Positions 11,165-45,836 of a stretch of 64,000 nt of DNA are shown here, piece after piece (within the stretch, counting starts at the first letter, position 1; the number at the start of each line of letters is the position of its first letter). A program made the translations under genes and the position numbers. The stretch is from positions 7,628,501 through 7,692,500 of the forward strand of contig NZ_CP128362.1 in assembly GCF_034274695.1 (NCBI RefSeq), given 5' to 3'. Under the pieces are notes generated by a model. The model was not told where the DNA came from. It worked only from the letters and a program-made list of their open reading frames with translations, and made no database searches. This DNA is from Chitinophaga sp. LS1 (lineage in GTDB: Bacteria > Bacteroidota > Bacteroidia > Chitinophagales > Chitinophagaceae).

Positions 11165-12271
11165 TTAGGATTTTTTGAAACCGCCAATTGGTTTCACATC
11201 GCCATTACCGCCAGTACCACTATTTTCATTTGTTGGCTTACCCTTGACGTCAGCTAGCTCTGTCCTCAGAGATGTATTTTCTGTTTTCAGGTTGGTTACT
11301 TCAGTCGTAAGATTGGTGATCTTGTCACCGTATTCCTTCGTCAGGGCACTCTGCACCGTATTCTGCACACTGGTTACCTGTGCTGAGATATGGTTTTCAA
11401 TTTCTGTAGACATGTCTTCCAGCGGCTTTGTAAGAGCTTCTACAATTTGGTTTACAATGTCAGCCGGCTTGGCATTTTCATCCGGCTTAAGACCTTTTAA
11501 GCCATTGAGAAAGTTTTCGAAGAACCTTTTCATATCGTTATTTTGGTTTAGAATGAATTGTTGAAGAGTGTTAGTGGGATCAATTGCTGGTGGCTGTTTT
11601 ACGGCAGAGTTGTATGCCGCGAGGACATCCTTATTAGCGTAATCCCATGTATCAGCGGAGAGCAGATTAGTGAAGGAAACTTCCTCGGAGACTTGTTTGA
11701 TGAAACCCTTCTCTTTTGCTTCTGGTCCCAGCATCCAGGTTTCAGCATTCATCATATTTGTGATTTCTTCAGCACTGAGGCCTGTCGATTTTGCATAGAA
11801 ATCACGAATCGCATTGTTAAACTGACGCAGAATTGTAGCCTGTCTTTCCACCTCATTTACATCACCGTATGCCAAACCAGAGGCATTATGGATCATAAAC
11901 CAGCTATTGGCAGACATTTCCGGAGAATCTCCTGCCATGAGGATGTATGTAGCGGCACTTGCCACAATGCCACGGCCAAAGGTGTTCACCTTCTTACCTC
12001 GTTTTTTTTCGTCCTGTAGGTAATCGTGCATCGCCATGGCATCTGTAATCATGCCACCAGGAGAGTTGATGAAGATGTTGTAAACAGCAGCATTTGACTT
12101 CTGTAAGTCCTCCCTGAATGACTTGAAGGATACAGAGGTATCGTCACCAAACCAGTCGCGGTAAATCTGCTGGGTTTCCGCATCGACTATGGCCCCGTCG
12201 ATGAATATATCTACCGAACCTGAAGAGGCATTTTGCAACCGGAAATTGAAAACTTGTACAGGACGCTTCAT
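11165..12271 (-). CDS. ClpP-type prohead protease fused to scaffold
   Basis: A 368-residue protein. Residues 1-215 are an S14/ClpP-like serine protease: NSPGG (69-73), nucleophile Ser105 in GIVASAATYI and His128 in MIHNAS. Residues 245-368 form a coiled-coil, Gln/Asn/Thr-rich tail ending in a Gly-rich segment, as expected of a scaffold. An internal Met (MKRFFENFLNGLKG, about residue 246) could start a separate scaffold, as in lambda C/Nu3. A late-type promoter lies directly upstream (12277-12322). Confidence 0.85.
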   Translation of the reverse strand: MKRPVQVFNFRLQNASSGSVDIFIDGAIVDAETQQIYRDWFGDDTSVSFKSFREDLQKSNAAVYNIFINSPGGMITDAMAMHDYLQDEKKRGKKVNTFGRGIVASAATYILMAGDSPEMSANSWFMIHNASGLAYGDVNEVERQATILRQFNNAIRDFYAKSTGLSAEEITNMMNAETWMLGPEAKEKGFIKQVSEEVSFTNLLSADTWDYANKDVLAAYNSAVKQPPAIDPTNTLQQFILNQNNDMKRFFENFLNGLKGLKPDENAKPADIVNQIVEALTKPLEDMSTEIENHISAQVTSVQNTVQSALTKEYGDKITNLTTEVTNLKTENTSLRTELADVKGKPTNENSGTGGNGDVKPIGGFKKS

Positions 12272-12276: not shown

Positions 12277-12322
12277 CAAAGGTCCGTTTGTAAAGAGTTT
12301 TAAATACTCTTTTAGAGTATTT
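12277..12322 (-). promoter_or_regulatory. Phage late-type promoter for head genes
   Basis: On the minus strand: ACTCT box, 20 bp, second ACTCTTT box, then GACCTTTG (12284-12277), just before the protease ATG. The outer box lies in the inverted repeat AAATACTCT/AGAGTATTT (12302-12322). The two other copies (25380, 27290) have the same 20-bp box spacing. This copy has two extra bases before the -7 element, which departs from TAnnTTTG by one base. Confidence 0.6.
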
Positions 12323-12344
12323 CTATGGCAAAAAAAACCATAGA

Positions 12345-12563
12345 TTATTTAGCCGTATCGCATTTTGTACAACCATATCTAGCCTGGTCAGTGGTTATAC
12401 CAAGCTTATTTTTAATTTCTCCATAACTGTGGTTATTCTGCCGCAACAGGCAAATCTTAGCATTACGGATAGCATCCTCTCCAATCAGTTGAATAAATTG
12501 TTCCCAATTGGAGAGGGCTATTTCCTGGATTTTGCGGTCTAGTTCTGTCATTCTCTTACTCAT
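12345..12563 (-). CDS. Small HTH-containing phage protein
   Basis: A 72-residue protein whose ATG overlaps the tape measure stop by 4 bases. The C-terminal half (HSYGEIKNKLGITTDQARYG) fits a helix-turn-helix of the sigma-region-4 / terminase-small-like type, followed by a CTKC pair. It ends 23 bases before the inverted repeat of the late-type promoter. It might bind DNA there, but that is inference. Confidence 0.6.
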   Translation of the reverse strand: MSKRMTELDRKIQEIALSNWEQFIQLIGEDAIRNAKICLLRQNNHSYGEIKNKLGITTDQARYGCTKCDTAK

Positions 12564-15500
12564 AGTGTACCTATTTGGGATTGTTTAACGGCCTTCTTTT
12601 GCGCATCTGTGACTGTTCTGGTTTCCTGAACCACCTGAATACGATCAATTCTGTTATTGACAGCCTGAATAGATTTAGTTTGCTCCATCAGGATCTCATA
12701 GTACTGTTCTGATTGTGCATTGCTGGTACTGATTGAAGTATTAGAAACTGAAGGTACGAATACTGGTGCCTGAAGGCTTTCTCCTAAACCACCACCAAAC
12801 TCAAACTTCTGAATAGCGGCACCAGGTGCAAAGGATACCCCACCGCCAAGGGAATTGAGAGCAGATGCTATCTGAGTATGATTACCAGAAATGGTATAAT
12901 CCCCAGTAGGTGCGTTCTTCGTCCGGATTACCGCCAATTCATTGGCTTCAGCTTCAAAAGTTCTTCCCTTATATGCGAATGGAGTACCGCCCCTGTTATG
13001 TGATTTACCCCCGAACCTTCCACCGCGTGTCGGGACGTCAGCAGATCCACCATACTCAAATTGGGTGTTATCAATTTCATTAACACGAATTGCATACCTA
13101 CCCAATGCAAGCAATGACTGTACTGCATACTGTGCAACGCCTGCAGCGCCAAATGTTACACCATTTAATACGTTAGCTGCCGCCGCTGCTGCGATATTAG
13201 CAAGCTCTGTTACCAATGCCAATCTCGCTTCTTTTTTCTTTACCTTTTTCAGTTCTTCTCCCGCCTGCTTATCGGCCTGCTTTTTCTTTTCAGCATACTC
13301 CTTATCAAGCCTTTCTTCCTCTGCCTTGCTTTGTGCACGAGCTTTAGCTTGCTCAAGCTCGGTATCAAGGCGCTCCTGCATATCCTTCTGGCTCTGCTTA
13401 ATACGGTTTTCTTCTGCATTGAAGTAGTTGTTCATTGCCGTCTCGGCCAGGCTATAAGCACCTGATAAACCTTGATATATAGTAGCGGTCAATTCATCAG
13501 ATGCACCAGAAAATTTTTGAATAAGGCTTTTTAAGGTATCCGGAAGAGACAAAAGGGTGGTTTTTTGATTTTCGAGTGTTGCCTTTTGTAATGCTTGTTG
13601 TTTCTCATATAACTGGGTAACAAACGTGTTGTACTCCTGTTCGGTTATTTCTTTACTCTGTAATTGCTGCTTGTATTTAGGAAGCAGCTTTTCCATATTA
13701 CTCACTTCTAAGGCGAGTACACCAACATCCTCCGTCTTATTGAGCTTTTCAGTTAAGTTCTGCTTAACTACAGTAGTATTCTTGCTTTGTGCGATAGCCA
13801 GTTTCTGCTTTTCTATATTAGCCTTATATGCCGCAATTTCCGCTTCTCCTTGCTTTTTAATGTCCTCTATAGACGCCTTTCCCAAAGCCAATTGATCTTT
13901 CTGAACATTTTGATTAACAGTTGAGATAGAATCAGCCCTCTCTTCAGCATTTTTCTTCGATTGGATATGGAGTGAATTTTCCAACTGATCCATGGATGCA
14001 TTAAAAGCTGTTTGAGCATTCAAAATTGCTGTATCAGAATCCAGTTTAGCCTGGGCAAGTTCTGTTGGAGTGGCGATGGGATTATTTTGTACTGCCTGCA
14101 GTTTGGATTCAGCCTCCTTTTTCGCATGTTCAAATTGATCTTTCAGACGCTCTTCGCCAAGTTTGAAGAGCTTTTCATTAGTTTCTCTCTCATTATCCAC
14201 CTTCTCTGATTTCAAGTCAGATATGAGCTTCCTTTCAGCAGCATTTGCCCCTTTTATAAGAGCAAGTTTAGCATCGATATACTTTTGATTGATTTCGAGG
14301 ATATTCTTCAGATATTCTTCCTCTGATTGTTTACCCTGGGTAAACTTCAGCTTTTGAGCGGACAATTCTTCGTCTCTGTTGGCATCTTGATCTCTCAGTA
14401 CGTCACGCTGATTGCCGGTAAGGCGTGAACCCTTGTCTTTATTTTTTTTATCCTTCCCTTCTGCATTCTGCAGCTCATCCTGTAGCTTTGTTCGTTGTGC
14501 TACTAAATCTTTTAGCTTTTGAGAACCTATTTCTGCTCTTTCTATCTCCTCATCCAAAGATTTTATCTCATCTTTTACAGTAGAAATAGTCCGTATTTTT
14601 GGGACGTTCGCAACAGCTGTATCTCCTTCTTTAACTGTTTGCGTTAACTTGCCGTATTGTGCTTTCACAAAAGCATTTGCCCGGCTAATTTCAAGATCTT
14701 TTGCGGCAAGTTGGTCCTGTACGCCCTGAATTGCGGCATCAATCGTAGATTTTCCAAACAAAGAGCCAACAAAAGCCCCAAATGGGACACTTCTTCTGCC
14801 TGTAGAAAGAAACTTCTGCTCTTCATCAGTAAGGTCATTCTTTCCCGTCTTACCTTCCTTCCTTTTCAACTCCAAATCGAAAAGGGTCTTCTCTAACCTG
14901 GTCCGATCTTCTATTGCCTTATTCGCTATTGCTTCCCCTGCCTGTAATTCTGCTTTTTCGCGAAGTGATTTTAAATACCCGTCTAAAATCTGTTTCCCTT
15001 CGGCCTGGGCTATGTTTTCCAAAGTCAGTCCTCTTAGGTATTCAGGAGCAATGGCTATTAGATCCTGCAAAGCCTTCTTACGGCTCCTTTCACTTATCGT
15101 GTGATCACCGATTACAGAGACAAGTAGTTTTGTTTTATTAACAGTGGCACCTATTTGATCCTGTACCTTATTGTGTATATCATTTAAAAGCCTGAGAGAT
15201 GCGGCATGAGCTAGCACTTTATCTGTAGTCCCGGATATTGCGCCTGCAAAAGCCGCCATTGTGCCCACAGCAAGGCCAGCTAATGTAAGTATTATGCCCA
15301 ATGGGGTGGCCAACAATGTACTATTTAAGAATTGCGCTGCTACCGTAGCCACTCGCATGGTTCCAGTCCAAAGCGCTAATGCTACAGCGTAGGCATTGGT
15401 AAAAATTGTAACAGCCCCCAATGCAATTCTACTGAGAACGATCTGCGTATTGACCAATAATAGATTTGCTTTAGCGAGGAATAATTCCTTATTCAGGATC

Positions 15501-17416
15501 GCCCATCCAGCAGTCCAAACGGTAGTTGCAATAATTACCCCAGGAATATTCCCTAATAGAAATGTGATAATCCCTGCAATTGCAGTTAAAAGAAGTTGAA
15601 CTGAACGGTTGCTTCCCAGTATTTCAAACTTTTTAGAAATTTTATCCAGGGTTGCGGCAAATGTATCATTCTTTTTAGCAAATGCATCTGCCAGCGCAGC
15701 CTGATCACCTAACGCCCTGGTCGCATCGGCCATACGTTTCTTCGCATATTCTGCATTACCTGCTATATCACCCAAAACACCGATAACCCTGGCACCTCTT
15801 AAATGGAAATCTGTTACTCCTTCAAAAAACTTTTCCATTTCGCCAGCATTTCCCTTAAGCTTAGCCGCAACCTCTACCAGCGCATCTATTGGACTATCAC
15901 GCAGTAACTTATTGAACTCTTCCAGGCTCTTACCCGTGAGGTCTGCATATTTCCTGGTATCAGTAAAAAGTTTGATTACTATTTGAGAGAGGGCAGTAGC
16001 AGATACCTCCTGTCGTTGGCCCAATTCTTCAAGCGCTGCACCCAAACCCAATACTTTATCGATCGTAATACCAGTAATACCCCTCACACCGGCTAGTCGT
16101 TCAGAGAAGCCTATCAAGAACCGCCCCGTTGCAACCCCTGAAGATGTTAGTTTGGCTATTGCGGCTCCTATATCACCGATATTTTTGGCAGTAACGTGCT
16201 TATCCTCACTATATACGTTAACTAACTTTACCAGGCTAGCTACCGCCTCATGAGGATCGCCCGCTTCATTTCCTAAGACTACGAATAACTGATCAAGAGC
16301 CTGAGTTACACCTACTATTTCATCCTTAGCCACACCTTTCTTTGCAACGATAGTGGCAATATCCACCAGACCTGCCAAAGAGGTACGGGTATCCAGTTTT
16401 TTTAGACTGTCTATGAGACCGTTAACTTCATCAGTGGTCCCTTTTGTGTAAATTTTTATTCTGGCGATGGAGTCGGAAAGCTCATAGTTTTGGTGGATGA
16501 GTTTCTGAGTGCCTGAAAGCAATGCCTGAAACCCAAAATAGCCAATAACAAACTGTGCAAGCTGGTTACGCATATCAGCAAATCCCTGGGCAATACCAGA
16601 AGTGATCTGGCTCCCTACCCCACCCATACCACGCATATCCTTCTCCAATTGAAGCACTTGGTGGTCAAGTTGAGACGCTTCTTGCCGGTTGGCAATCATT
16701 TTCTTTTCAATCGCATCCAGTCCACCCGTGCCAGCAAGCTTGACCTGGTTATATTCGTTTTTCAACTGGGCAAAGGAAGAGTTTAATTCGGTTAGACGGC
16801 TCTTTGCCTTTTGTATTTGCCCCCCTACAAGGTCACCAAGCCCCATTTGCTTAAATGCCTGTACAATACCAGTGGTATATTCGCCAACGAGTAATTTATC
16901 TTGCGAAAACTGGCGTCGGAAATTCTGTTCCGCAGCAGCTAATTGTTGCAATTTTTGAATGGCACTATCATATGTATAAAGCTGCCCATTAACACCAAGA
17001 GGATTACCAGTAGGAGTAGCCTTTACGACCTTGTACAATTCGGCATACTCTTTTCGCAACGCATTATAGCTACCGGCCGCCGCCTGGTTACTTGATTGCT
17101 GCTGCTTCTGTTGATTGATCTCTGCCTGCCGGGCAATTTGTAGTGCCTTGGATTCATTACGTTGATTGATAAGCTCTGTCCTTAGCTGGGCTTGTTTGGC
17201 TCTCGCTTCCTCATAAGCCGAACTAGCTTTTTTTAAAGCATCTGACTCCACACCTTGCGCCTGAGCCGCTTCCGTAGCTGCTTTAGATGCATTCCGTTTT
17301 GCCTTACCTACGTCGTTAAACTTGACAATCAGCGTATCAAGTTGCTTTGATACCTCATCATACCCAAGGGTACGCAGCTCATATATCTTTTGTACTTTAC
17401 CGAAAGTTGCAGCCAT
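12560..17416 (-). CDS. Tail tape measure protein
   Basis: A 1618-residue protein, the longest gene here. The N-terminal about 290 residues are coiled coil (Lys/Gln/Ala-rich heptads). About 300-600 holds the tape-measure core (QALLSGTQKLI, SLAGLVDIATIVAKKG, GITIDKVLGLGAALEELGQ). Hydrophobic segments follow at about 605-760, with another long coiled-coil region (about 940-1460) and an AAAAANVLNGVTFGAAG hydrophobic piece. It sets tail length and is ejected during infection. It starts 2 bases after the upstream tail gene. Confidence 0.92.
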   Translation of the reverse strand: MAATFGKVQKIYELRTLGYDEVSKQLDTLIVKFNDVGKAKRNASKAATEAAQAQGVESDALKKASSAYEEARAKQAQLRTELINQRNESKALQIARQAEINQQKQQQSSNQAAAGSYNALRKEYAELYKVVKATPTGNPLGVNGQLYTYDSAIQKLQQLAAAEQNFRRQFSQDKLLVGEYTTGIVQAFKQMGLGDLVGGQIQKAKSRLTELNSSFAQLKNEYNQVKLAGTGGLDAIEKKMIANRQEASQLDHQVLQLEKDMRGMGGVGSQITSGIAQGFADMRNQLAQFVIGYFGFQALLSGTQKLIHQNYELSDSIARIKIYTKGTTDEVNGLIDSLKKLDTRTSLAGLVDIATIVAKKGVAKDEIVGVTQALDQLFVVLGNEAGDPHEAVASLVKLVNVYSEDKHVTAKNIGDIGAAIAKLTSSGVATGRFLIGFSERLAGVRGITGITIDKVLGLGAALEELGQRQEVSATALSQIVIKLFTDTRKYADLTGKSLEEFNKLLRDSPIDALVEVAAKLKGNAGEMEKFFEGVTDFHLRGARVIGVLGDIAGNAEYAKKRMADATRALGDQAALADAFAKKNDTFAATLDKISKKFEILGSNRSVQLLLTAIAGIITFLLGNIPGVIIATTVWTAGWAILNKELFLAKANLLLVNTQIVLSRIALGAVTIFTNAYAVALALWTGTMRVATVAAQFLNSTLLATPLGIILTLAGLAVGTMAAFAGAISGTTDKVLAHAASLRLLNDIHNKVQDQIGATVNKTKLLVSVIGDHTISERSRKKALQDLIAIAPEYLRGLTLENIAQAEGKQILDGYLKSLREKAELQAGEAIANKAIEDRTRLEKTLFDLELKRKEGKTGKNDLTDEEQKFLSTGRRSVPFGAFVGSLFGKSTIDAAIQGVQDQLAAKDLEISRANAFVKAQYGKLTQTVKEGDTAVANVPKIRTISTVKDEIKSLDEEIERAEIGSQKLKDLVAQRTKLQDELQNAEGKDKKNKDKGSRLTGNQRDVLRDQDANRDEELSAQKLKFTQGKQSEEEYLKNILEINQKYIDAKLALIKGANAAERKLISDLKSEKVDNERETNEKLFKLGEERLKDQFEHAKKEAESKLQAVQNNPIATPTELAQAKLDSDTAILNAQTAFNASMDQLENSLHIQSKKNAEERADSISTVNQNVQKDQLALGKASIEDIKKQGEAEIAAYKANIEKQKLAIAQSKNTTVVKQNLTEKLNKTEDVGVLALEVSNMEKLLPKYKQQLQSKEITEQEYNTFVTQLYEKQQALQKATLENQKTTLLSLPDTLKSLIQKFSGASDELTATIYQGLSGAYSLAETAMNNYFNAEENRIKQSQKDMQERLDTELEQAKARAQSKAEEERLDKEYAEKKKQADKQAGEELKKVKKKEARLALVTELANIAAAAAANVLNGVTFGAAGVAQYAVQSLLALGRYAIRVNEIDNTQFEYGGSADVPTRGGRFGGKSHNRGGTPFAYKGRTFEAEANELAVIRTKNAPTGDYTISGNHTQIASALNSLGGGVSFAPGAAIQKFEFGGGLGESLQAPVFVPSVSNTSISTSNAQSEQYYEILMEQTKSIQAVNNRIDRIQVVQETRTVTDAQKKAVKQSQIGTL

Positions 17417-17418
17417 AA

Positions 17419-19713
17419 TTATGTAGTTTCAATGATTGCGCCTGGTATATCTGATATCAGCGCCTTCAGTGGAGAATATTTTGTGTCGTACTTGTCCTGG
17501 AACGCTATCTTCAGCGTAGGATAAACAGAGTTAAAATCTGATTCTATGATTAGTGACCATTTCCGCAAATAGCATTCGGTAGAACCCTCTGACATTGGCC
17601 GGTAGTCGGTCATTTTAACCAGTTCCCACCGTTCACCACGCACTATTTTATGCTCTCTGTGATACCAATTAGTCGCATCCTTATTATTTAATCTGAAATT
17701 GGTAGTATAAAACTGGCCATTCCGCATGATTGCGAATCGCTGCAGGAAGAACCGGCGTAGTAAACCCGGCGTCCTCACATTGGCAATCTTCTCATCACAA
17801 TATGACAACACTGGATCACCCTGCCCTCCTTCCTGATAGTTGGTTGCAAACATGTAAGGGATACCTGTCTTATCCTCACCATCGAATCGCCATCCACCGG
17901 CATCATATACTACTCCTTTGTACCAGGCGAGTTTAGGCTGGAAGGTATTACTCGCCTCATCGTTACTGGTATTGCTGATGTTCTCCGGAATGATACAGAT
18001 CAACTGAGGCTTCACAGCTACAGCTCCTTTATTCTGCCATTGGTCTATTTCATAGTGCATCACCGGAGAAAAGAACCTGTTTTCTATGGATTTGGTATCA
18101 GCTTTAAACCGTTCAGGGAATACATACTTTGCAGCAGCCAATACATTAGCGTTTCGGTCCTGAATGAGCTTTAGAATACCGTCGTTGGTGTCATCTTTAA
18201 ACTTCATGGTCACCTCTCTTTCATAATCACGATATAGTTCAATCGTTGAGGTTTGAGATAGATCCTGCTTCTGATTCCAGTCGATATAATCTCCGTTGAA
18301 GTACCCTGTTCTTGTGTTGGTTAGGTCGGTATCCAAAGAATACGGGTGTGCGGGTTCTAGTATAACAACCTTTTGAAGCGGATCAGTGCCAGGCAGAAGA
18401 TTGAAAGTATCTATGACCCCAGCAAAGAAGTCGAGAAACTTGTAATTCTGGAAAGCAGTGTAGTTTTGGAAGTCAATTGTGCCTCCTAATGGGATGCGGA
18501 TGTATGCCAGTGTAAACTGGATCACCTCAACTTTTACTGTAGGGGAGAATGTACCAGTGCACTTGACATAGATTCTGGCACTTACAAAGTCACCGGGAGA
18601 TACCTGAGAGGTGAAATTATCGTCTTTTACGTCTCGCTTGTTAAATCCTTGAGTAACGGTTGACTGATGGATAACATCATGCGTCTCTCTAATCGTAGTA
18701 TTAACATACCACTCAACCCTGACGGTTACTTCCTGATGGTCTTGCATCTCGACCTCCCAATCGAACTGAAGGTTGAATGTGGTTTCGATTAAACCATAAT
18801 TGAACGTAGCATATGTCCAATACATAATATGATTAGTGTAATCATATAGATACAGATCGTTAGGATCAAAAGCTCCATCAGTTGTTTCATTGGTAACCTT
18901 CACATCCAGGTTTCCATCAAAGAACCCAGGAGCCGTTACCTTTTCAATGCCTTTAGCGAGGAAGCGTAAGTTATCCTGTCGGTTACCTTCACTAGAAAGA
19001 AAATTACACCAGGTCCAAGGCATTACCAGCCGGCGAAAATAATTTGTGGTCAGGAATTCAGATTGAACCTTATATCCCAAACTTTTAAAAGCCCAGTAGA
19101 TAATCCAATAAACAGAAATGGAAGGACGCATGTACAGCGGGGTCACATTATCATCCTTGTATTCCCCGTCTGTGATTGTGGTATCATAGAAATCGAACGG
19201 CTGGCGATACCTCACCGGTGCGAATACATAAGGTAAGGCTTCAGTATTACCAGTAAATAGCCAGGAATCCAGGATATTCTGTTTGGTAAATTGGAAATTA
19301 ATATGCTTCAGCAGGTCATACAGGGTGGTTTCCTTTAGATCGATCATCCAGTCCGCATTATTGCCATAAAAATCAAACTGATAGGAAACCGGCTTGTCAG
19401 TATGGGTCGCATTGGTCAGAAATGCTTTCCCTATCAAAAGCTCATCACCATTTGCCTCAATCTTACCTGATCTGTAACTCCGGAAGATGGAGCCTTCTGT
19501 CAAATCCTCAATAGATGGATTGTGAAAGGTGTTTGCCAGCTGGTCATTATTTACCGTAGCGGGTATAGTCACATTAAACGCTTCACTGGACTTCTTCTTG
19601 GTAAAATCTTCAGCATCTTCCAGGTTGTAGCTAATGCTGATGTCTAGATCAGTGTTAGAAAGCTCTACTTCCTGCCCATCGAGAGTGATCTTTATGTACT
19701 TGGAATTCGGCAT
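17419..19713 (-). CDS. Large tail protein (distal tail/baseplate-like)
   Basis: A 764-residue protein directly upstream of the tape measure gene. The N-terminus KYIKITLDGQEVELSNTDLD, then KKSSEAFNVTIPAT, is typical of large tail proteins found next to tape measure genes in Bacteroidetes prophages. Beta-rich with many aromatic residues. It is probably a baseplate hub or distal tail protein; no enzymatic motif is seen. Confidence 0.6.
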   Translation of the reverse strand: MPNSKYIKITLDGQEVELSNTDLDISISYNLEDAEDFTKKKSSEAFNVTIPATVNNDQLANTFHNPSIEDLTEGSIFRSYRSGKIEANGDELLIGKAFLTNATHTDKPVSYQFDFYGNNADWMIDLKETTLYDLLKHINFQFTKQNILDSWLFTGNTEALPYVFAPVRYRQPFDFYDTTITDGEYKDDNVTPLYMRPSISVYWIIYWAFKSLGYKVQSEFLTTNYFRRLVMPWTWCNFLSSEGNRQDNLRFLAKGIEKVTAPGFFDGNLDVKVTNETTDGAFDPNDLYLYDYTNHIMYWTYATFNYGLIETTFNLQFDWEVEMQDHQEVTVRVEWYVNTTIRETHDVIHQSTVTQGFNKRDVKDDNFTSQVSPGDFVSARIYVKCTGTFSPTVKVEVIQFTLAYIRIPLGGTIDFQNYTAFQNYKFLDFFAGVIDTFNLLPGTDPLQKVVILEPAHPYSLDTDLTNTRTGYFNGDYIDWNQKQDLSQTSTIELYRDYEREVTMKFKDDTNDGILKLIQDRNANVLAAAKYVFPERFKADTKSIENRFFSPVMHYEIDQWQNKGAVAVKPQLICIIPENISNTSNDEASNTFQPKLAWYKGVVYDAGGWRFDGEDKTGIPYMFATNYQEGGQGDPVLSYCDEKIANVRTPGLLRRFFLQRFAIMRNGQFYTTNFRLNNKDATNWYHREHKIVRGERWELVKMTDYRPMSEGSTECYLRKWSLIIESDFNSVYPTLKIAFQDKYDTKYSPLKALISDIPGAIIETT

Positions 19714-20291
19714 CAGTTACGTATTGTAATGTCAGTGTTGGAAAGCTGGAATTCGACAGTAAGGAGGTAAACATACCGGTCTTCAGTCTTCAATGTGTTA
19801 TAGGTGGCATCTTTCAGCAGGACCGGAAGGTAGTCATCTGGCTGTCCCTGAGTTCCTTTCCACTCAAGCCACACCGAAGGGCTGCGAAATAGTTCTTTCA
19901 GCCACTTTATTACATCCTCGCTAAAGACACTGGTAACCTTGTAGGTCTCATTTGCCTGAACGCCGAAGCGGTTCATACCTCCATCAGATTTAACCAATGG
20001 CACAGACAGGGGCTTCTGCCATGAACTACTTTTAACCTCGTAGTTTTCCTCTGCCTGGATAAAGGATATAGCATCAATGGCACCGAGACCATTTAAGAAG
20101 TGGAGCCTGTACGTTTCATCTTCAGATGCAGCGCCATCCTCAATGAAGTAATGAGGAGTAGTGGCAACGACTGCGCTTTCAAGATTTGTAACCTCGACGT
20201 AGTACTCCTCCACGTCCTTCCAGGGTACGGAAGGATAGATGTTTGCAAGGTTCTTTGGTCCAATTGGGATGTATTGTACTGTCTGATCCAT
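19713..20291 (-). CDS. Phage tail protein, unknown
   Basis: A 192-residue protein, beta-rich (MDQTVQYIPIGPKNLANIYP start, WLEWKGTQGQPDDYLPVLL near the C-terminus). It overlaps the downstream large tail gene by 1 base and follows the 320-residue gene by 4 bases, so the three are probably translated together. Tail role inferred from position. Confidence 0.55.
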   Translation of the reverse strand: MDQTVQYIPIGPKNLANIYPSVPWKDVEEYYVEVTNLESAVVATTPHYFIEDGAASEDETYRLHFLNGLGAIDAISFIQAEENYEVKSSSWQKPLSVPLVKSDGGMNRFGVQANETYKVTSVFSEDVIKWLKELFRSPSVWLEWKGTQGQPDDYLPVLLKDATYNTLKTEDRYVYLLTVEFQLSNTDITIRN

Positions 20292-20295
20292 AGTA

Positions 20296-21258
20296 TTATG
20301 GGTTTAAACCATCTTGTAAATAACCGGTCCTTCCGCCTTCGCAGCTACCGAAGGCTGTGAAATAGATATCATATTTCCCTTTGGGGGCTGTAACGTCTAT
20401 GTATGCCGGGTTGGGGTCGGCAAAAGCAACAGAGAAATCACCGGTGTCTGTAGTCTTACGGTATTCAATCTTCACACCGGTAGTGTAGTAGGGCAATGTC
20501 TGCCAGGTAAAGCGGAATCGCTGGGTAGTAGAATCAATTTCAGCAAGGCCAACAGAAGGAATAACTACAGGACATGCATTTGCGAACACTTTAGTAACAT
20601 GATTAAAGGTTGTCTGCCCTTTGTACCTGTAATAGGTAATAATGCCCTTAATCGGGCTATTATCTATGTTTACGATGGGGAAATAGTCGCTTCTGCCCAG
20701 TTTAATGCTATTCGTGGCTGGCCGGTGAGACAAAGGGAACACATTTGCACCCCAAGTACCCGATTTGAAGGTGTTAAGGTGAGTGGTTAATACCTGGTTA
20801 TCCTCGTGCTGCAGGGTAGAATTGACAATGTAAGACATGTTGCTTTGGGTGCCAGTGCCGGTACTGGGTGCTCTATTGCCTGTGCCTTGAACAGGTGCGA
20901 CTCCTTCGTACAGAATAAAGCCATCTGATGTTATCTTCGATGACCGGAATTTACAGTATACACTGGTCATAGCCTGATCAGCGGGGTAAATCTTTTCCCC
21001 TCCATTAGGTGCCAGGTACTTTCTGAGGTATTCCTGTGCCGCATCCTGGATATCAAACTGCCACTCACCGGTGGATAAGGCCAGAGTCTTTGACAATGAT
21101 TTGTAGAACACACCGCCGAAGTAGATATCACAGAATACAATAGGCGGTGCCAAGGTAGTACTATCGGTAGCAGTAGCTGTCACCAGGTAAAGAATGGGCC
21201 TGTAAGCCGCACTTAAACCGCTGGTAGCTGGTTGGTATGTGATTGCTGTAATTGGCAT
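20296..21258 (-). CDS. Tail protein with FN3-like C-terminus
   Basis: A 320-residue protein. The N-terminal about 230 residues show no known motif. The last about 80 residues (FRFTWQTLPYYTTGVKIEYR ... KYDIYFTAFGSC) have the strand spacing of a fibronectin type III domain, common in exposed tail proteins. It overlaps the upstream gene by 1 base. Confidence 0.55.
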   Translation of the reverse strand: MPITAITYQPATSGLSAAYRPILYLVTATATDSTTLAPPIVFCDIYFGGVFYKSLSKTLALSTGEWQFDIQDAAQEYLRKYLAPNGGEKIYPADQAMTSVYCKFRSSKITSDGFILYEGVAPVQGTGNRAPSTGTGTQSNMSYIVNSTLQHEDNQVLTTHLNTFKSGTWGANVFPLSHRPATNSIKLGRSDYFPIVNIDNSPIKGIITYYRYKGQTTFNHVTKVFANACPVVIPSVGLAEIDSTTQRFRFTWQTLPYYTTGVKIEYRKTTDTGDFSVAFADPNPAYIDVTAPKGKYDIYFTAFGSCEGGRTGYLQDGLNP

Positions 21259-21779
21259 TATATGGTCTCCGATTTACATTTTTGAAAATTCTGTTCGACA
21301 AGCCTATCAAAGTTTACAGACATGTAGGCATCCAGCTCCTGCTCCTTCTTTGTCATTGCAGCCTCAATCATCCCTGTACGTTGTCCCGTACTACTAAACC
21401 TGTTACTTGCGGTAGTGGGCATGCCCTGCTGTTTATGTTTATTGGCGGTAGCAAACGCAAAAGCCAGTGCGTCCTTATCACTTTTTCCTCTCAATATGAA
21501 GAACTGCCGCAAGCCTTCTATATATTTGGATGTCCCAGCACCTGTATGTGCACCAGGTGAGTATGGCACCCTGCCTGCAGCAACTCCGTTATTGACAAAT
21601 CGGGTATATTCCACGGCGGAAGCGGAAAGGATACGGAAAGACCCGAATTTGCCGACCACATAAGAAAGGGAGCTTTCCATTCCTCCTGTTAGGTAGTGGC
21701 CTTGTGCCCGGCTTTCTGCCTTGATACCGGCATTTACTATGAATGCCCCTCCTTTCATTACTTCTTCTGGTGTATTCAT
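21258..21779 (-). CDS. Tail completion-like protein
   Basis: A 173-residue protein. The central YTRFVNNGVAAGRVPYSPG followed by helices loosely resembles HK97 gp10-type tail-completion proteins. It overlaps the upstream 88-residue gene by 4 bases. Assignment is weak; the position among tail genes is the main support. Confidence 0.45.
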   Translation of the reverse strand: MNTPEEVMKGGAFIVNAGIKAESRAQGHYLTGGMESSLSYVVGKFGSFRILSASAVEYTRFVNNGVAAGRVPYSPGAHTGAGTSKYIEGLRQFFILRGKSDKDALAFAFATANKHKQQGMPTTASNRFSSTGQRTGMIEAAMTKKEQELDAYMSVNFDRLVEQNFQKCKSETI

Positions 21780-22042
21780 ATGGCATTTAACATGTTTGAT
21801 TGTTTCTCCAATAATATCAACGTATCCTGCAGCTGACGATAGTTAGTGAGAATTCGTTCTTTACACAGGCCGCACCCCATGTCTATCACCTCATCAGGAG
21901 ACACATAGGTTTTCCAGATTTGAAGCAAATAGGCCATGCTGGGGTCTGCCTGGCTGGCTGTTGCCCGGCTGATCATGTTTGTTTCCAGAATCTCCTTACG
22001 ATATTCTGCCGGTATTTTGCCGGCGATTTCCTTGATGGTCAT
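21776..22042 (-). CDS. Small phage protein, unknown function
   Basis: An 88-residue mostly helical protein (MTIKEIAGKIPAEYRKEILE start) with a CGLCKE pair. Both ends overlap neighbours by 4 bases (ATGA junctions), showing tight translational coupling in the tail block. No family recognised. Confidence 0.55.
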   Translation of the reverse strand: MTIKEIAGKIPAEYRKEILETNMISRATASQADPSMAYLLQIWKTYVSPDEVIDMGCGLCKERILTNYRQLQDTLILLEKQSNMLNAI

Positions 22043-22383
22043 GTCAGTCTGATTTTAAAGTGTTCACAAACCTTTCGCTTAATACGATCTGGTTTCATAT
22101 GAGGGTACTTTTTACGCAACTTCATGGTATAAGCCTGGATCTCCTTAAACTTTTCAACAGGAAGGCCTAATCGTGCCGCTACCTGTTCGTATGCTATACC
22201 TGACTTTTCACCAATTGGTGATATCTTTTGAATATATGGCAGATAGTAGTTCGGTACGATCATAGGCTTTGTACTTTCTTTCATTGCTGCCGCTTCTGCC
22301 GCTATCCTAATAGTATTGGGAATACTGCCAAAGTCACATCCGAATTTCATTGGGCCTTGTGATAATTCATCTGAACAATCCAT
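22039..22383 (-). CDS. Small phage protein, HTH-like C-terminus
   Basis: A 114-residue protein with a basic C-terminal half (AYEQVAARLGLPVEKFKEIQ, then KKYPHMKPDRIKRKVCEHFK) that could fold as helix-turn-helix. The N-terminus is uncharged and Ser/Gly-rich. A strong hairpin (22411-22440) separates it from the upstream gene. Function unknown. Confidence 0.5.
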   Translation of the reverse strand: MDCSDELSQGPMKFGCDFGSIPNTIRIAAEAAAMKESTKPMIVPNYYLPYIQKISPIGEKSGIAYEQVAARLGLPVEKFKEIQAYTMKLRKKYPHMKPDRIKRKVCEHFKIRLT

Positions 22384-22410
22384 TATTTACAGTTTGTAAT
22401 TATGAATAGA

Positions 22411-22440
22411 TCAATGAGGGCTATAAATGGCCCTCATTGA
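22411..22440 (-). terminator. Hairpin within tail block
   Basis: TCAATGAGGGC (22411-22421) pairs with GCCCTCATTGA (22430-22440), 11 bp with an 8-base loop. It lies directly after the stop of the 72-residue gene. No T-run follows, so it may attenuate or protect the mRNA end rather than stop transcription fully. Confidence 0.5.
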
Positions 22441-22441
22441 A

Positions 22442-22660
22442 TTACTTGCTAAACGTCAGGGTAATAGTATCACCTGGTACGAAGAATGTATTAGCTGGTG
22501 CTTCAGCTGTAATCATTATGGTAAGCTCACCAGATGGAGTGTACTTAGTGAAATCTTTGTACTCGCCGTTAGGATCATAAACCGCAGTCAGTTTAGCTCT
22601 TTTGGAGCCACCGAAATCCTCTACTGAATTGACTTTAAATTTTGCTACAACTTGATTCAT
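22442..22660 (-). CDS. Small phage protein, possible abundant tail component
   Basis: A 72-residue beta-rich protein (MNQVVAKFKVNSVEDFGG start, VPGDTITLTFSK end). No family recognised. A strong hairpin right after the stop suggests it is made in higher amounts than the genes downstream, as expected for a repeated structural protein. Confidence 0.5.
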   Translation of the reverse strand: MNQVVAKFKVNSVEDFGGSKRAKLTAVYDPNGEYKDFTKYTPSGELTIMITAEAPANTFFVPGDTITLTFSK

Positions 22661-22699
22661 GTTATTATTTGTTCGGTTTATCCCCCGTTCCAGGGTTTT

Positions 22700-23326
22700 T
22701 TACAGTTTGTGCTCCGGATGCGGATCAGCAACCGGCACGGTGATTAAAGAAATGTCTTCGATGTTGTAATCCTCAATCTCACAGCCAACCATCAGAGAAA
22801 ACTGGAAATCCAGCCTTACGCCGGACACCCGGTCAGTACCAATCAAGGATACCGGGTCTATCATCTTATCATATTGAGAACCACCAGGGAGGCGAAAGAT
22901 AGAATTGGTAAGGCCCCTATCACGCTGTAACTGATCCACTACACGCAGGAAGTTCACAGCGCATCGCTTCATATCATGCCAGTCTTGCGTAATGGTGTGT
23001 GTTGAAGTACGGGTATTTGGGTTGGGTGCCTTTATCTGGTTGTTGCCAGTATAGTAGGTTGTATTCAGGAAGAACATAACAGCTCGGTACCTCTCCCACT
23101 CTCCCATTTTACCATCAAAACACCCCTGGCTACGTGGGGGCATCATTATAGCAAGCGGATATTTCTGCCCTGCTACCGGCTTAATGTCATCATTGATGAC
23201 GCCTTCCAGCTGATCACTGTTAATCTCCAACCCGAAGCGAGGACACAGGTGAAAGCGCCCCTGAACGCCTTTCGACTGTTCAAGAACGCTTTTGAAGAAG
23301 GCTTCTATGAAAGGATAGCTGGTCAT
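22700..23326 (-). CDS. Phage protein, unknown (tail assembly region)
   Basis: A 208-residue protein (MTSYPFIEAFFKSVLEQSKG start). It has alternating polar and aromatic residues and no recognised motif. It overlaps the upstream 145-residue gene by 4 bases. Position suggests a connector or tail role. Confidence 0.5.
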   Translation of the reverse strand: MTSYPFIEAFFKSVLEQSKGVQGRFHLCPRFGLEINSDQLEGVINDDIKPVAGQKYPLAIMMPPRSQGCFDGKMGEWERYRAVMFFLNTTYYTGNNQIKAPNPNTRTSTHTITQDWHDMKRCAVNFLRVVDQLQRDRGLTNSIFRLPGGSQYDKMIDPVSLIGTDRVSGVRLDFQFSLMVGCEIEDYNIEDISLITVPVADPHPEHKL

Positions 23327-23760
23327 GCCTGGGCGGTTTTTGCGGAGAAGGAACCGAGTGGGTTTTTATCCAACTCCTCTTTTGCTTTGATGGACTCCAC
23401 CGCAAGATCTTTTTTGATCTGATCATCTATTTCACCAGATAACTCCTGCCACTGTGCAACGGCCGCAACCCCTGACTGCAGCAGTTCCACATATGACTCA
23501 ACACTTACACCAAGATCCCTTGCACTTTTATTCTCCAGATTATTAGACAGCAGAGCAAAGTCCATCATGGTTAAATCCTCTTTCTTAACCATCAGGAGCC
23601 TTTTAAGCTCATAAGGAGCAATGCCAAGAGATAAACAGGAGGAATACTCCAATGCAATTTTGGCAGCATCAAACCACTTAGGATTAATTGCTTCAAATGG
23701 CATGTTGGTAGTTTGTAATGCCTTCTGTTTTCTTTCGTTGAATTGCTGTACTACGTTCAT
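23323..23760 (-). CDS. Phage protein, unknown
   Basis: A 145-residue helical protein (MNVVQQFNERKQKALQT start) with Lys/Glu-rich ends and an Asn/Leu-rich middle. No domain recognised. It overlaps the next gene by 4 bases. Confidence 0.5.
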   Translation of the reverse strand: MNVVQQFNERKQKALQTTNMPFEAINPKWFDAAKIALEYSSCLSLGIAPYELKRLLMVKKEDLTMMDFALLSNNLENKSARDLGVSVESYVELLQSGVAAVAQWQELSGEIDDQIKKDLAVESIKAKEELDKNPLGSFSAKTAQA

Positions 23761-23781
23761 ATAGTTTGATTTAGTTGATGA

Positions 23782-23907
23782 CTACTTTGATTTCTCTCTT
23801 TCGGCCTCGTAATCGAGGTGCTGTGCTTCGTTGAGTTCCTTTTCTTCTGAGGCATATATCAGGATATCAAAACATTTGGCCTTTCGTACACAGTCTATGC
23901 TGCTCAT
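23782..23907 (-). CDS. Very small phage protein (41 aa)
   Basis: ATG at 23907, stop at 23782: MSSIDCVRKAKCFDILIYAS then a Glu/Lys-rich tail. It fills the gap between two coupled late genes with the same strand and spacing as its neighbours, which is the only support. Function unknown. Confidence 0.4.
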   Translation of the reverse strand: MSSIDCVRKAKCFDILIYASEEKELNEAQHLDYEAEREKSK

Positions 23908-23942
23908 GTTTGATCCAGGTATATCGAATACTTTTGTTTTGG

Positions 23943-24674
23943 CTATGGATTTAAGGAAATTGACCCATCCCCATTGCTCGAAGTGTTTTGCTGAGTGCCT
24001 ACCACCTCCTTTGATTCGGCTACGGTGGAAGACTGGAAATGATGAATGGACAAACTCATTGAAGCGGTCAAAAAAAAACCGACACCCATGGCAATATCCA
24101 TTGGCAATTCACGCATCATTTCAATGCGCTCACTGTTTTCATAAAGGAAGGATTCGTCATATTCTTCAGATGGCTTTCTGAGGTATATAGCACACAGCTG
24201 TAGCATTGCATCCCATCTGCTTTTGCCCAAAGCAATTAGGTTCTGTACGACCTGCTTTGAGTCGATGAACTCACCGAACTGCATTTTATCTCCATGCTTA
24301 AGTGAAGGCGGGTGGAGAACCCATGTTTCCCCTTTCCAAGAATACTCCTGCCGACATTCTACTTTGCTCTCACTTTCAAATAGCACAGAAAGACAAGCAT
24401 AGTAGATATTTGCAATCTTATCTACGAACTCACTTTCTTTTAGCGCTTCGGGAGTACAGTTGGCGAAGAAGGCGAAGGTTCGGAACATTTTCTCCATTTG
24501 GAACTCAACTACTTCAAGCTCTTTCATAGGCCCATCCTCCATTTCGACAATCTTCTTAAGCCACTCATCGAGGTCATTACCATATTCCTCCTGAAAAGCT
24601 ATTCTCTGTCCCAGTGTGAACTCAGATAAAGAGGATGGGATAACTACCTCTTTGTCATTAACAGTTATTCTCAT
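23943..24674 (-). CDS. Phage protein, unknown (late block)
   Basis: A 243-residue protein (MRITVNDKEVVIPSSLSEFT start) with an acidic helical middle and a Ser/Gly/Asn-rich C-terminal tail. The N-terminal beta hairpin followed by helices resembles tail-assembly chaperones in layout only. It overlaps the upstream gene by 4 bases. Confidence 0.5.
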   Translation of the reverse strand: MRITVNDKEVVIPSSLSEFTLGQRIAFQEEYGNDLDEWLKKIVEMEDGPMKELEVVEFQMEKMFRTFAFFANCTPEALKESEFVDKIANIYYACLSVLFESESKVECRQEYSWKGETWVLHPPSLKHGDKMQFGEFIDSKQVVQNLIALGKSRWDAMLQLCAIYLRKPSEEYDESFLYENSERIEMMRELPMDIAMGVGFFLTASMSLSIHHFQSSTVAESKEVVGTQQNTSSNGDGSISLNP

Positions 24675-25363
24675 TGCTGGCCTGGTTTACGACCTCTTTT
24701 TTTAGGTTGATCTACCTGCTGTGTCATGTCGGCTTCCTTCTGCTCATCATCATTCTCTTCTTCCTCCTCCTCACTATCATCATCGTCAGATGAGGTTAAC
24801 GGATCGACGATAGGATCTGTAACAGGTAGAGTATTGTCTTCCTCCAGCTGTTTGTCAATTGCTGCCTGCTGTGCCGCGTCGGCCTTCTTCTGCATAATGG
24901 CGATGGCGATATCTTCAATGAAGTCTTCATCGATCTCACGATCTTCGTAATCATCAACACCAGCCAACTTTGCCACTCCCCGTATAATCAGCTGTTCCTC
25001 TGGAATAGTAGCACTATGTACCAAACCTTCAGGAGAGATGGTATCAAATTGTACATAGAGCTGACTTACTCTGTCCCTAAATGCCTGCATGTCTGCTTCA
25101 TCTGCAGTAAGATCAGCCTGTTCTATCTTCTTACCGTAGGTGACTTCCTCACCCATAAAGTTGGTAATGGGCTGGTGCTCTGGTACAACATCGCTATTTA
25201 CTGAGCCACCTGTCATACCAGCAAGGCGATTTCTGATTTTAAGTAATCCGGAGCAGACAAAGAGTAGTACAGAAGGGTGGTCCTTAAGCAGCGTTTTGAA
25301 GTATCCATCTGCTTCATTAAGCATATCTAATGCTTCCGCTATAGGGGAATTGTTTTTGTCCAT
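24671..25363 (-). CDS. Acidic phage protein with AT-hook-like tail
   Basis: A 230-residue protein from the ATG at 25363 (MDKNNSPIAEALDML). The C-terminal third has a run of Asp/Glu (about 195-215) and ends PKKRGRKPGQQ, matching the AT-hook core RGRKP. First gene of the block that starts at the late-type promoter 25380-25419. It could contact DNA during packaging or regulate; unknown. Confidence 0.55.
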   Translation of the reverse strand: MDKNNSPIAEALDMLNEADGYFKTLLKDHPSVLLFVCSGLLKIRNRLAGMTGGSVNSDVVPEHQPITNFMGEEVTYGKKIEQADLTADEADMQAFRDRVSQLYVQFDTISPEGLVHSATIPEEQLIIRGVAKLAGVDDYEDREIDEDFIEDIAIAIMQKKADAAQQAAIDKQLEEDNTLPVTDPIVDPLTSSDDDDSEEEEEENDDEQKEADMTQQVDQPKKRGRKPGQQ

Positions 25364-25379
25364 AAACAATCTTTTTTTT

Positions 25380-25419
25380 CAAAGGTAGTCAAAAAGAGTA
25401 TTTACACATCTAAAAGAGT
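25380..25419 (-). promoter_or_regulatory. Phage late-type promoter for tail block
   Basis: On the minus strand ACTCTTTTTGACTACCTTTG (25399-25380) contains the -7 element TACCTTTG. A second ACTCTTTT box begins exactly 20 bp upstream. The same 20-mer is repeated upstream of the terminase small subunit gene. Confidence 0.65.
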
Positions 25420-26841
25420 TTATAGACGGTCTAATTTAGACCGGTTTTGCTCTGTGCGAGTGGTAGGGGCTGCAGTAGTAGTATTGGCTGTCTTGATTTT
25501 CTTCTTGCGCTTCAGCCCTTTATAAGTCGTAATACCATACCTACCCGCATCTTTAAGGTGGTTATTTGCGTCTACTGGCTCGTCTGTTGGTTCGCCATCA
25601 GCACCTAGTTTCCACTTATACTCTTCGTTCTCCATCCATAGGTTATCAGAACATTCTGTACCGTAGTTCTCCATAGCATTGACTTGTTTGATGCCAAATT
25701 TGAGGCTATCAGGACCTTTGTCGGCTGCTCTGATATGGGTAAATCCAAGATCCCGTAATTCCTGTATACTCTTAGGCTCTGCCGAATCAGCAATAATAAT
25801 TGCATTCCTCGGCACTCCACGTACCCGCATCATGTCTGCCAAAGCCGGATTAGTCAGGCCCGGTTCATAAATCACCTCATGCCAGAATGCCCTGTTATTA
25901 TGTATCTTGAGCTCTACCACTGCTACGGGATCACCAGAGTAACCAAAGTCAATGGCATATATAGATGTGTATGGTAGAGACCGGAAGAATTCAAGTGTAA
26001 TATGCTTCCAGTTCCTGTATATTCTGCCTCGGGCACCTTCCGGCACCAGGCCCAATACATCAACGTAATACTGTTCAGGGTTGTAGAACTGGCTATCAGG
26101 GTCACCATACGCCTGGTATTTAGCCAGAGTCTTAGGATTAAGGTTCTTTATGTTGTCCTTGTAGGTAGAATGGATGCACAATACATCAGGGTTGGATTTA
26201 GGGATGGCCTTATAATATGGTAATGGCTTGCCTTCCGGATGATATTTACCGTCTGAGTCTGTATATGGGTTTCCATCATATAACCCGCACTCCTCCAGGT
26301 TATAGAAGCGCTTTATCAGCCAATGGTTTTTACTGGGCGGGTTATACAGGAAGATTACCTGGATATTCTCAACCTTATCTGTACGGATAGAGTCATCCAG
26401 CTTATTCACCTCTCCTTCATGGTTCTCATCTGCCTCCTCAATCAATACGTGGGTGATCCCTGCCAAGGATTTAAGTTTTGCGGACCGGTTACCACTGGAT
26501 TTATTAAACCCCTTACTGATGATGGTATTACCTGTAGGCTTATACAGGATGGTCATTTTACTTTCATTGATCTCAAAGTCTGCCTCGTCGAAATCGCTTT
26601 CCTCTATCCTGTCCTTAAAATCAGCAAACAGGGAATCCCTGATATCAGAGAACACGTTGCGCAGGAATACACCACGGAAGTAGGCTGGTTGGGTAAGGAG
26701 GATGAGGAAATAATCGGTGCCGAAATGAGAGCGACCAGCTGCACGGCCTCCCCAGATGTGAATATACCTGGCTTTAGTTGTGAATACAGGCTTGTATAGG
26801 CGGGATATATGGTGCCGGTGCTCAGCCGCCATAGTCCTCAA
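25420..26841 (-). CDS. terL: Terminase large subunit
   Basis: A 473-residue packaging ATPase-nuclease (Terminase_3/PBSX type). Walker A is GGRAAGRS (31-38), with Arg in place of the usual Lys, as in several phage terminases. Walker B-like THVLIEEADE is near residue 135. The nuclease motif IYAIDFGYSGDPVAV is near 295. The start overlaps the small subunit gene by 20 bases. An ATG three codons later is an alternative. Confidence 0.92.
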   Translation of the reverse strand: MRTMAAEHRHHISRLYKPVFTTKARYIHIWGGRAAGRSHFGTDYFLILLTQPAYFRGVFLRNVFSDIRDSLFADFKDRIEESDFDEADFEINESKMTILYKPTGNTIISKGFNKSSGNRSAKLKSLAGITHVLIEEADENHEGEVNKLDDSIRTDKVENIQVIFLYNPPSKNHWLIKRFYNLEECGLYDGNPYTDSDGKYHPEGKPLPYYKAIPKSNPDVLCIHSTYKDNIKNLNPKTLAKYQAYGDPDSQFYNPEQYYVDVLGLVPEGARGRIYRNWKHITLEFFRSLPYTSIYAIDFGYSGDPVAVVELKIHNNRAFWHEVIYEPGLTNPALADMMRVRGVPRNAIIIADSAEPKSIQELRDLGFTHIRAADKGPDSLKFGIKQVNAMENYGTECSDNLWMENEEYKWKLGADGEPTDEPVDANNHLKDAGRYGITTYKGLKRKKKIKTANTTTAAPTTRTEQNRSKLDRL

Positions 26842-27271
26842 AGATTATTCGCGTTGTAACATCGTGTTTGATAGGTTCGCCATTAGGTCCTGATTGCTCC
26901 TGTGCCACCCTGTCTTTATACTTTTCAGGGGCATGGGCCTTAAGGAGTACGATCAGGAGGGTATCGCTGTATTCCTGTACCCAGGCAATCCTCTTCCCTT
27001 TATAATAAACCCCCTTTTTAACGCCTTTTACTGCCCTGCGCTGGGCTTCGTCTTCCAGTACCCCAACCGACATTTTAGAGGCAGATTTAAAGCCCTCTAT
27101 GAATGATTGGTTGCCCTCTTTGGTTTCATCAAGCCAGTTATAAAAGGTTCGACGGGCCACCTTTGCCTTCCTGCAGGCTTCAGTAATATTACCGCACGCC
27201 TCATAGGCAGACAGGACATCCTTCTGTATTTTTTCGGTTGTTCGTGCCTCTCCTTTTTTTAATCGTGCCAT
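26822..27271 (-). CDS. terS: Terminase small subunit
   Basis: A 149-residue protein from the ATG at 27271 (MARLKKGEARTTEKIQ). The N-terminal helix-turn-helix (ACGNITEACRKAKVARRTFY) recognises the packaging site; the C-terminal part is oligomeric. It is first in the late operon, 19 bases from the late promoter -7 element, which argues for this start over one seven codons upstream. Confidence 0.85.
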   Translation of the reverse strand: MARLKKGEARTTEKIQKDVLSAYEACGNITEACRKAKVARRTFYNWLDETKEGNQSFIEGFKSASKMSVGVLEDEAQRRAVKGVKKGVYYKGKRIAWVQEYSDTLLIVLLKAHAPEKYKDRVAQEQSGPNGEPIKHDVTTRIIFEDYGG

Positions 27272-27289
27272 TGTGCCGTGATTACAACA

Positions 27290-27339
27290 CAAAGGTAGTC
27301 AAAAAGAGTCAGCAAAACTCTATTAGAGTTTTGCTGACT
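27290..27339 (-). promoter_or_regulatory. Phage late promoter with inverted-repeat box
   Basis: On the minus strand ACTCTTTTTGACTACCTTTG (27309-27290) ends in -7 element TACCTTTG. A second ACTCT lies exactly 20 bp upstream. The upstream part is a perfect 15-bp inverted repeat (27307-27321 and 27325-27339), which could also end early transcripts. This is the main late promoter candidate. The remaining non-coding stretch 27340-27527 holds nothing else I recognise. Confidence 0.7.
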
Positions 27340-45775: not shown

Positions 45776-45797
45776 TTTTCAGTACTTTTACTCGCTT

Positions 45798-45825
45798 TTG
45801 TATTGTATATCGTACAGTACCTTTG
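45798..45825 (+). promoter_or_regulatory. Rightward repressor promoter
   Basis: TTG (45798-45800), 17 bases, TACCTTTG (45818-45825). It points at the repressor gene 45927 and would read across the operators. Confidence 0.5.
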
Positions 45826-45836
45826 CGTTGATAAGT

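Follow-up and report, generated by a model that had tools for sequence, protein, structure and literature searches.

Paired 13-bp dyads at three predicted late promoters of a Chitinophaga prophage and their counterparts in related phages

The stretch of DNA analysed here, 64,000 nucleotides from the genome of Chitinophaga sp. LS1 (contig NZ_CP128362.1, positions 7,628,501 to 7,692,500; hereafter the window), contains a prophage in which three sites with ACTCT boxes repeated 20 bp apart precede late genes. The prophage is bounded by a 43-bp direct repeat (125-167 and 47830-47872), probably the att sites, with the copy at 125-167 forming the 3' end of a tRNA-Arg (TCT) gene. Its genes are mostly on the minus strand. 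The early genes, from about 45.8 kb, are followed by replication genes and then by the late block, with holin and glucosaminidase genes near the prophage end. The late block is ordered terS (27271), terL, tail genes, tape measure, a gene for a 72-residue helix-turn-helix (HTH) protein, head protease (12271), capsid-like protein, and portal. For convenience, the three sites are termed P1 (terS), P2 (the gene starting at 25363), and P3 (head protease). They are called late promoters on the basis of gene content rather than transcripts.

A preliminary description of this DNA, made from the sequence alone, had reported the boxes upstream of 12271, 25363, and 27271. In accordance, the pattern ACTCT-N15-ACTCTTT is matched exactly at three places of the window, each time on the minus strand (27329-27303, 25419-25393, and 12318-12292), and at none in 100 dinucleotide-preserving shuffles of the window. 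Each match lies just upstream of its late gene. The 20-mer said to be common to two sites, ACTCTTTTTGACTACCTTTG, has exactly two copies, at 25399-25380 and 27309-27290. Across the complete genome (8,674,373 bases), ACTCT-N15-ACTCT has seven matches, three of which are the prophage sites, and a control pattern has ten. Extended by N8-13 and CCTTTG, the pattern matches exactly three places in the genome, all of them the prophage sites. No match to the extended pattern is found in 58 other genomes (35 of the same genus), a set to which the related prophage G040 does not belong.

The boxes are half-sites. The repeated unit is a 13-bp dyad (here ACTC-N5-GAGT), present twice per promoter with starts 20 bp apart and 7 nt between the dyads. 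All promoter elements and late genes given below are on the minus strand. At P1, the distal dyad ACTCTAATAGAGT (27317..27329) pairs at 4/4 arm positions, and the proximal dyad ACTCTTTTTGACT (27297..27309), which starts 20 bp from the distal start, pairs at 3/4. At P2, the distal dyad ACTCTTTTAGATG (25407..25419) is degenerate (2/4 arm pairs), and the proximal dyad is again ACTCTTTTTGACT (25387..25399; 3/4). At P3, the distal dyad ACTCTAAAAGAGT (12306..12318) pairs at 4/4 positions, and the proximal element ACTCTTTACAAAC (12286..12298; 1/4) is a lone half-site. The outer box had also been described as often sitting in an inverted repeat. At two of the three sites (12.3 and 27.3 kb), it supplies the left arm of an ACTCT-N3-AGAGT palindrome that is perfect; at 25.4 kb, the palindrome is degenerate. 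The inner dyad is weaker, reading ACTC-N5-GACT at 25.4 and 27.3 kb.

The proximal dyad abuts or nearly abuts a -7 element. Bacteroidetes primary-sigma promoters carry a -33 TTTG and a -7 TAnnTTTG; in a study of Flavobacterium johnsoniae, the -7 element occupies -12 to -5, and transcription starts 4-5 nt downstream (PMC6847099). P1 and P2 both have the -7 element TACCTTTG (27290..27297 and 25380..25387), which fits this consensus. P3 has GACCTTTG (12277..12284), in which T-12 is missing, so that the consensus is found at two of the three promoters. The (T/G)ACCTTTG element of the preliminary description needs correction at 12.3 kb, where it ends GGACCTTTG and lies 2 bp farther out; the distance from the inner box to the final G of the element is 22 there, compared with 20 at the other two sites. 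In Bacteroidetes primary-sigma promoters, the -33 TTTG lies about 19-21 bp upstream of the -7 element. A TTTG was sought at this place in P1 and P2 and is absent; AGAG (P1) and AGAT (P2) sit 20 bp upstream of the -7 element. P1 and P2 share the -7 element of Bacteroidetes primary-sigma promoters, with a start expected 4-5 nt downstream (PMC6847099), and the place of the -33 TTTG is held by the distal dyad. In the numbering of that study, the P1 and P2 dyads would cover roughly -44 to -32 (distal) and -24 to -12 (proximal). The preliminary description had considered a phage-specific activator or sigma-factor site. We reject the second of these, since at two of the three promoters the element downstream fits the -7 consensus of the host primary sigma; the part of the suggestion that is supported is that the sites look like late promoters with a phage-private regulator site.

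Promoters could also be located in 17 other phages whose late genes are orthologous, namely the C. sancti prophage (a close relative, TerL 92%, in a viral record whose 72-residue protein is identical to one assigned to Chitinophaga sancti by a database), G040 (a prophage of the same genus), a Flavihumibacter metagenome-assembled genome, G475, G551, G644, and viral contigs. The same layout is found at the orthologous genes of most of them, as the preliminary description had proposed to check: 13/17 relatives show the 20-bp spacing, mostly in other arm letters. The arms are ACTC/AATC in C. sancti, AATC in G040, AGTT in L171, AATT in L170 and L252, TATC in G644, AGTA in L256, and AGTT/AGTA in L254. 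Among the phages with a clear consensus, A predominates at arm position 1 (G644 has T) and T at position 3, and positions 2 and 4 vary. In the window, C. sancti, and G040, the offset from box to -7 element is 20 in all six P1 and P2 sites and 22 in the three P3 sites. When the window and the analysed pieces of C. sancti and G040 are scanned with the arms of each phage, only the three expected sites are recovered; G644 yields three sites, one of which is read a second time on the opposite strand. In L252, scanning finds a further perfect 16/16 site before a methylase-like gene upstream of terS. Among these phages, P3 -7 elements often read TGCAnnTTTG rather than TAnnTTTG. In the window, a further perfect dyad, ACTCTTGTAGAGT, lies at 29654-29666 (minus strand) within an early open reading frame (29463-29741), 28 bp before TACGTTTG at 29625-29618; it has no tandem partner.

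Each promoter was given a score for two dyads plus direct repeat of the arms at lags of 12-32, with 16 as the highest value; the start of the proximal box was set 19-24 bp ahead of the end of the -7 element. The 36 promoters scored are those with a placeable start (15 protease, 15 P2, and 6 terS). No protease start is aligned in L249, L253, and G551; L172 and L173 nearly duplicate L171; the L252 terS row, having no clear -7 element, is left out; and the G644 terS is assigned from position, not BLAST. The summed score is 372 at lag 20 and 237-284 at the other 20 lags, and 2000 shuffles give a mean of 248 (standard deviation 9.3, maximum 279). When the close group (window, C. sancti, G040, and L009) is excluded, the remaining 26 promoters give 249 at lag 20 and at most 212 at other lags. 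A score of at least 10 is reached by 24/36 promoters at lag 20, by 1-7 at other lags, and by a mean of 2.3 (maximum 8) in shuffles; at lag 20 it is reached in 14/18 phages, the window and 13 of its 17 relatives. Four P2 rows (L170, G644, L254, and L249) were re-anchored by hand after viewing the sequences; two score 14 and two below 10, and without the four rows 22/32 promoters are at threshold. These statistics do not remove the shared ancestry of the layout itself.

The arms are uniform within a phage and divergent between phages. Arm similarity is 7.29/8 within a phage (14 pairs) and 4.49/8 between phages (169 pairs), and none of 5000 label permutations is as extreme; the test is conservative, because close relatives are counted as between-phage pairs. 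This pattern fits the prediction of one drifting regulator per phage. Perfect dyads are more frequent at the distal position (14/25 sites) than at the proximal position (4/25; Wilcoxon p 0.016, the sites not being independent); the 25th site of this comparison is the upstream site of L252, which is outside the 36.

Other promoter candidates with this -7 element show lag 20 in 0/17 cases in the lineage phages and 0/4 in the window flank; the window prophage offered none. Candidates on other contigs show it in 2/9 and 1/15 cases, the first set being no higher than at neighbouring lags. Outside the lineage, 24 loci of TerL relatives (258 kb) have five lag-20 matches with a score of at least 12, one of which is C. 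sancti P1, compared with 2.6 in shuffles; lags 18, 19, 21, and 22 give 6, 5, 9, and 0 matches. Since lag 20 is near the shuffles and the neighbouring lags, there is no sign of spread outside the lineage in these loci. A loose pattern returned 98 viral stretches, which, given the size of the collection, are probably chance matches; 79 loci served as a control set. Judged from sequence, we regard the layout as a genuine architecture of late promoters that is shared by most of the phages sampled in this lineage.

We propose that P1-P3 are promoters of one phage late regulon, transcribed by host RNA polymerase and carrying paired operators for one phage-encoded dimeric HTH regulator per phage, most likely an activator. 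We put the probability of this reading at roughly 60%; start sites, protein binding, activation, and the identity of the regulator are what we infer. The dyad symmetry suggests dimers, and the 20-bp spacing suggests two dimers bound side by side on one helix face, centred near -38 and -18 at P1 and P2 and about 2 bp farther upstream at P3. The dyads would stand in place of a recognisable -33 element. Activation is favoured because the distal dyad occupies the -33 place at a fixed distance from the -7 element; most likely, a dimer on this better dyad would activate by substituting for the -33 contact. The greater symmetry of the distal dyads is what one would expect were they the first to be occupied. 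The proximal dyad, which is weaker and at P1 and P2 is in contact with the -7 element, would be filled cooperatively and would help or, at high protein level, shut the promoter. From phage to phage, the specificity of the regulator would drift, chiefly at arm positions 2 and 4, and each phage's promoters would drift along with it. If the regulator is the 72-residue HTH protein, made at the end of the unit behind P2, it would feed its own loop.

Several observations weigh against this proposal. At lag 20, 12/36 promoters are below threshold, and four of the 18 phages (the Flavihumibacter genome, L174, L250, and L255) have no promoter at threshold. L009, L251, G551, and L249 reach it in a passing register without a clear arm consensus. 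The AT-rich arms of L171, L256, and G475 give extra, lower-scoring matches, which we read as chance. The -33 motif is weakly conserved in F. johnsoniae, so that its absence from P1 and P2 says little (PMC6847099). The proximal dyad lies directly against the -7 element, where repressor sites are more usual. The similarity of the recognition helices of the 72-residue proteins is not significantly related to arm similarity (Mantel p 0.053 in the simple test and 0.17 without N-terminal similarity). Finally, the 72-residue gene is itself late; to set off the cascade, it would have to be expressed leakily or in some other way.

The main rival is repression, given the contact between the proximal dyad and the -7 element. 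A phage repressor lying over the spacer and the -33 region would keep the late promoters off until titrated by replication or removed, and the 72-residue protein could be such an autorepressor. We consider this possible, though on the whole doubtful. The dyads span about -44 to -12 (a geometry taken in part from PMC6847099), the palindromes are dimer-sized, and the -7 elements of P1 and P2 match the consensus, all of which would suit a repressor. However, a repressor does not need a fixed distance to the -7 element across several phages, and the weak P3 element, in which T-12 is missing, suggests a need for help. The divergent early region at 45776-45926 carries nested dyads GTGACAAAAGTCAC, TCACTAATAGTGA, and GTGACTTTTGTCA, probably immunity operators. 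Read by eye, the early-region dyads differ from the late ones in the window (GTGACAAAAGTCAC and TCACTAATAGTGA versus ACTC-N5-GAGT), in C. sancti, and in G040, and the early dyads of C. sancti and G040 are also different from those of the window. Therefore, the immunity repressor is unlikely to bind the late dyads, and we reject operators of a CI-type repressor.

The lead candidate for the proposed regulator is the 72-residue HTH protein (12345..12563), whose gene is the last of the unit behind P2 and whose start overlaps the tape-measure stop. Sixteen families, all in the late block, are common to all seven compared phages, and this protein is the only recognised HTH among them; the window copies of the other fifteen have no HTH match in Pfam scans (cut-offs 0.01 to 1). 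The family is present in 7/7 phages, with 27% identity in the most distant, and in L254 the gene is still behind the tape measure though the protease lies 7.3 kb farther on. The AlphaFold model (predicted local distance difference test score 91) has an HTH fold with generic HTH matches in PDB. More speculatively, the protein, whose translation follows that of the tape measure, could be a master late regulator that uses the distal dyad to activate P1-P3 and the proximal dyad to limit them, in a loop that would count phage genome copies, turn the late genes on as replication proceeds, and then level off, its fast-drifting specificity giving each phage its own late code; we hold this fuller version only tentatively. 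We reject an early regulator encoded before terS: nine small open reading frames at 27.5-30.1 kb have no HTH match in Pfam (four at E 1, three at E 0.01, and two at E 0.1), and BLAST finds no early gene shared by all seven phages. The first early gene (45527-45775; 82 residues) is HTH-like by eye only and present in 3/7 phages, and its search returned itself and one relative.

A different role for the same protein appears unlikely, namely that a phage-modified polymerase or a cofactor resembling sigma region 4 reads the boxes and the 72-residue protein is the sigma-4-like part. Such sigma appropriation is exemplified by T4 MotA/AsiA. In one database record, the C. sancti copy is listed as Sigma-70, region 4, and Sigma70_r4_2 is weakly matched by 10/37 family members (best E 0.0039); the window protein has no Pfam match at E 1.

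The promoters apparently divide the late block into three transcription units, each opened by a hairpin and a paired-operator promoter. At P1, a 15-bp inverted repeat with a 3-nt loop, followed by CTTTTTG, forms a terminator-like hairpin that encloses the distal dyad (27307..27339; -22.2 kcal/mol, z -6.7). In the C. sancti counterpart (-21.0 kcal/mol, z -6.5), the outer arms differ in letters and the pairing is kept. P2 is preceded by a weaker hairpin (z -2.4), and a hairpin with an 8-bp stem lies between the HTH gene and P3 (12322..12344; z -2.4). P3 of G644 is preceded by a strong hairpin (z -5.8), and the folded stretches at P3 are not significant in C. sancti (z -1.2) and Flavihumibacter (z -0.3; incomplete stretch). 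The strong P1 hairpin adjoining terS would also fit boxes that serve packaging or replication (pac or TerS binding, or termination), with the P1 repeat simply a terminator, but this is very improbable given three sites at three gene starts, their fixed distance to the -7 element, P2 dyads that themselves form no strong hairpin, and no lag 20 among the 17 other candidates of the lineage phages.

Unit 1 starts with terS (26822..27271; PHROG 4044, E 6.7e-28), followed by terL (25420..26841; PHROG 3717, E 2.9e-34). Unit 2 starts with a gene of unassigned function (24671..25363) present in 7/7 compared phages and includes the tape measure gene (12560..17416; PF10145, E 2.8e-13). Unit 3 starts with the Clp-like head maturation protease (11165..12271; PHROG 94, E 1.4e-55; PF00574, E 1.2e-27). 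The protease ATG is 5 nt past the -7 element in the window and 4-5 nt past it in 7/15 phages, so that their protease mRNA is predicted to have almost no leader or none at all; in F. johnsoniae, leaders are longer than 10 nt in 87% of cases (PMC6847099). The late order (3946-27271) is unusual in that terminase, tail genes, and tape measure precede head protease, capsid-like protein, and portal.

Among known systems, the operators of the controller (C) proteins of restriction-modification systems offer the closest mechanistic parallel. In the C.Csp231I system, OR is the repressing site. The promoter of the operon that contains the C.Csp231I regulator carries two tandem dyads, CTAAG-N5-CTTAG at OL and OR, and is alike in this respect; the dimer on OL contacts RNA polymerase, and feedback shifts from activation to repression with rising protein, depending on gene copy (PMC4824078). 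In C-protein systems the distal dyad is the stronger, as it is here when strength is judged by symmetry only. The C-protein gene lies in its own operon, and the candidate 72-residue gene ends the unit behind P2. C proteins belong to a phage-repressor-like HTH family and are linked to restriction-modification genes; the 72-residue protein is a generic HTH by fold. C.Csp231I controls one small operon with 18 nt between dyads (PMC4824078), whereas three late promoters with 7 nt between dyads and a Bacteroidetes -7 element are present here.

Mu Mor (PMC4390567) and C, which acts at late promoters (PMC4461284), are small phage-encoded activators, as proposed here. At Pm, a Mor dimer on inverted repeats replaces the -35 contact of the host polymerase; it uses one 16-bp element centred at -43.5 (PMC4390567), whereas here two 13-bp dyads lie near -38 and -18. 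No Mor family match was seen for the 72-residue candidate. RinA, ArpU, and Ltr are phage-encoded regulators of packaging and assembly genes in Gram-positive phages, and their gene lies just before terS. In contrast, the 72-residue candidate is encoded between tape measure and head protease, and it has no PHROG match.

Other features of the window lie apart from the late promoters. An integrase-like gene is present within the prophage (275-1624; weak Pfam Int_N match, E 0.0049). A 300-nt repeat of 81% identity connects this gene (1184-1483) with 52327-52626, beyond the right att site, and is perhaps the remains of a second element. Outside the prophage, near-identical stretches at 57296-57544 and 58683-58932 are 1.39 kb apart (51 nt at 100% and 204 nt at 97%).

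Late-gene control in temperate Bacteroidetes phages is not described among the literature matches listed, a coverage that mostly excludes subscription journals. If true, our proposal would identify the cis elements of late control in these phages, their transcription units, and a single regulator open to test. The phages would form a natural series in which operator letters change and geometry stays fixed, which would suit the study of regulator-operator co-evolution, and the 20-bp signature may serve as a tool for finding late promoters in uncultured phages of this lineage.

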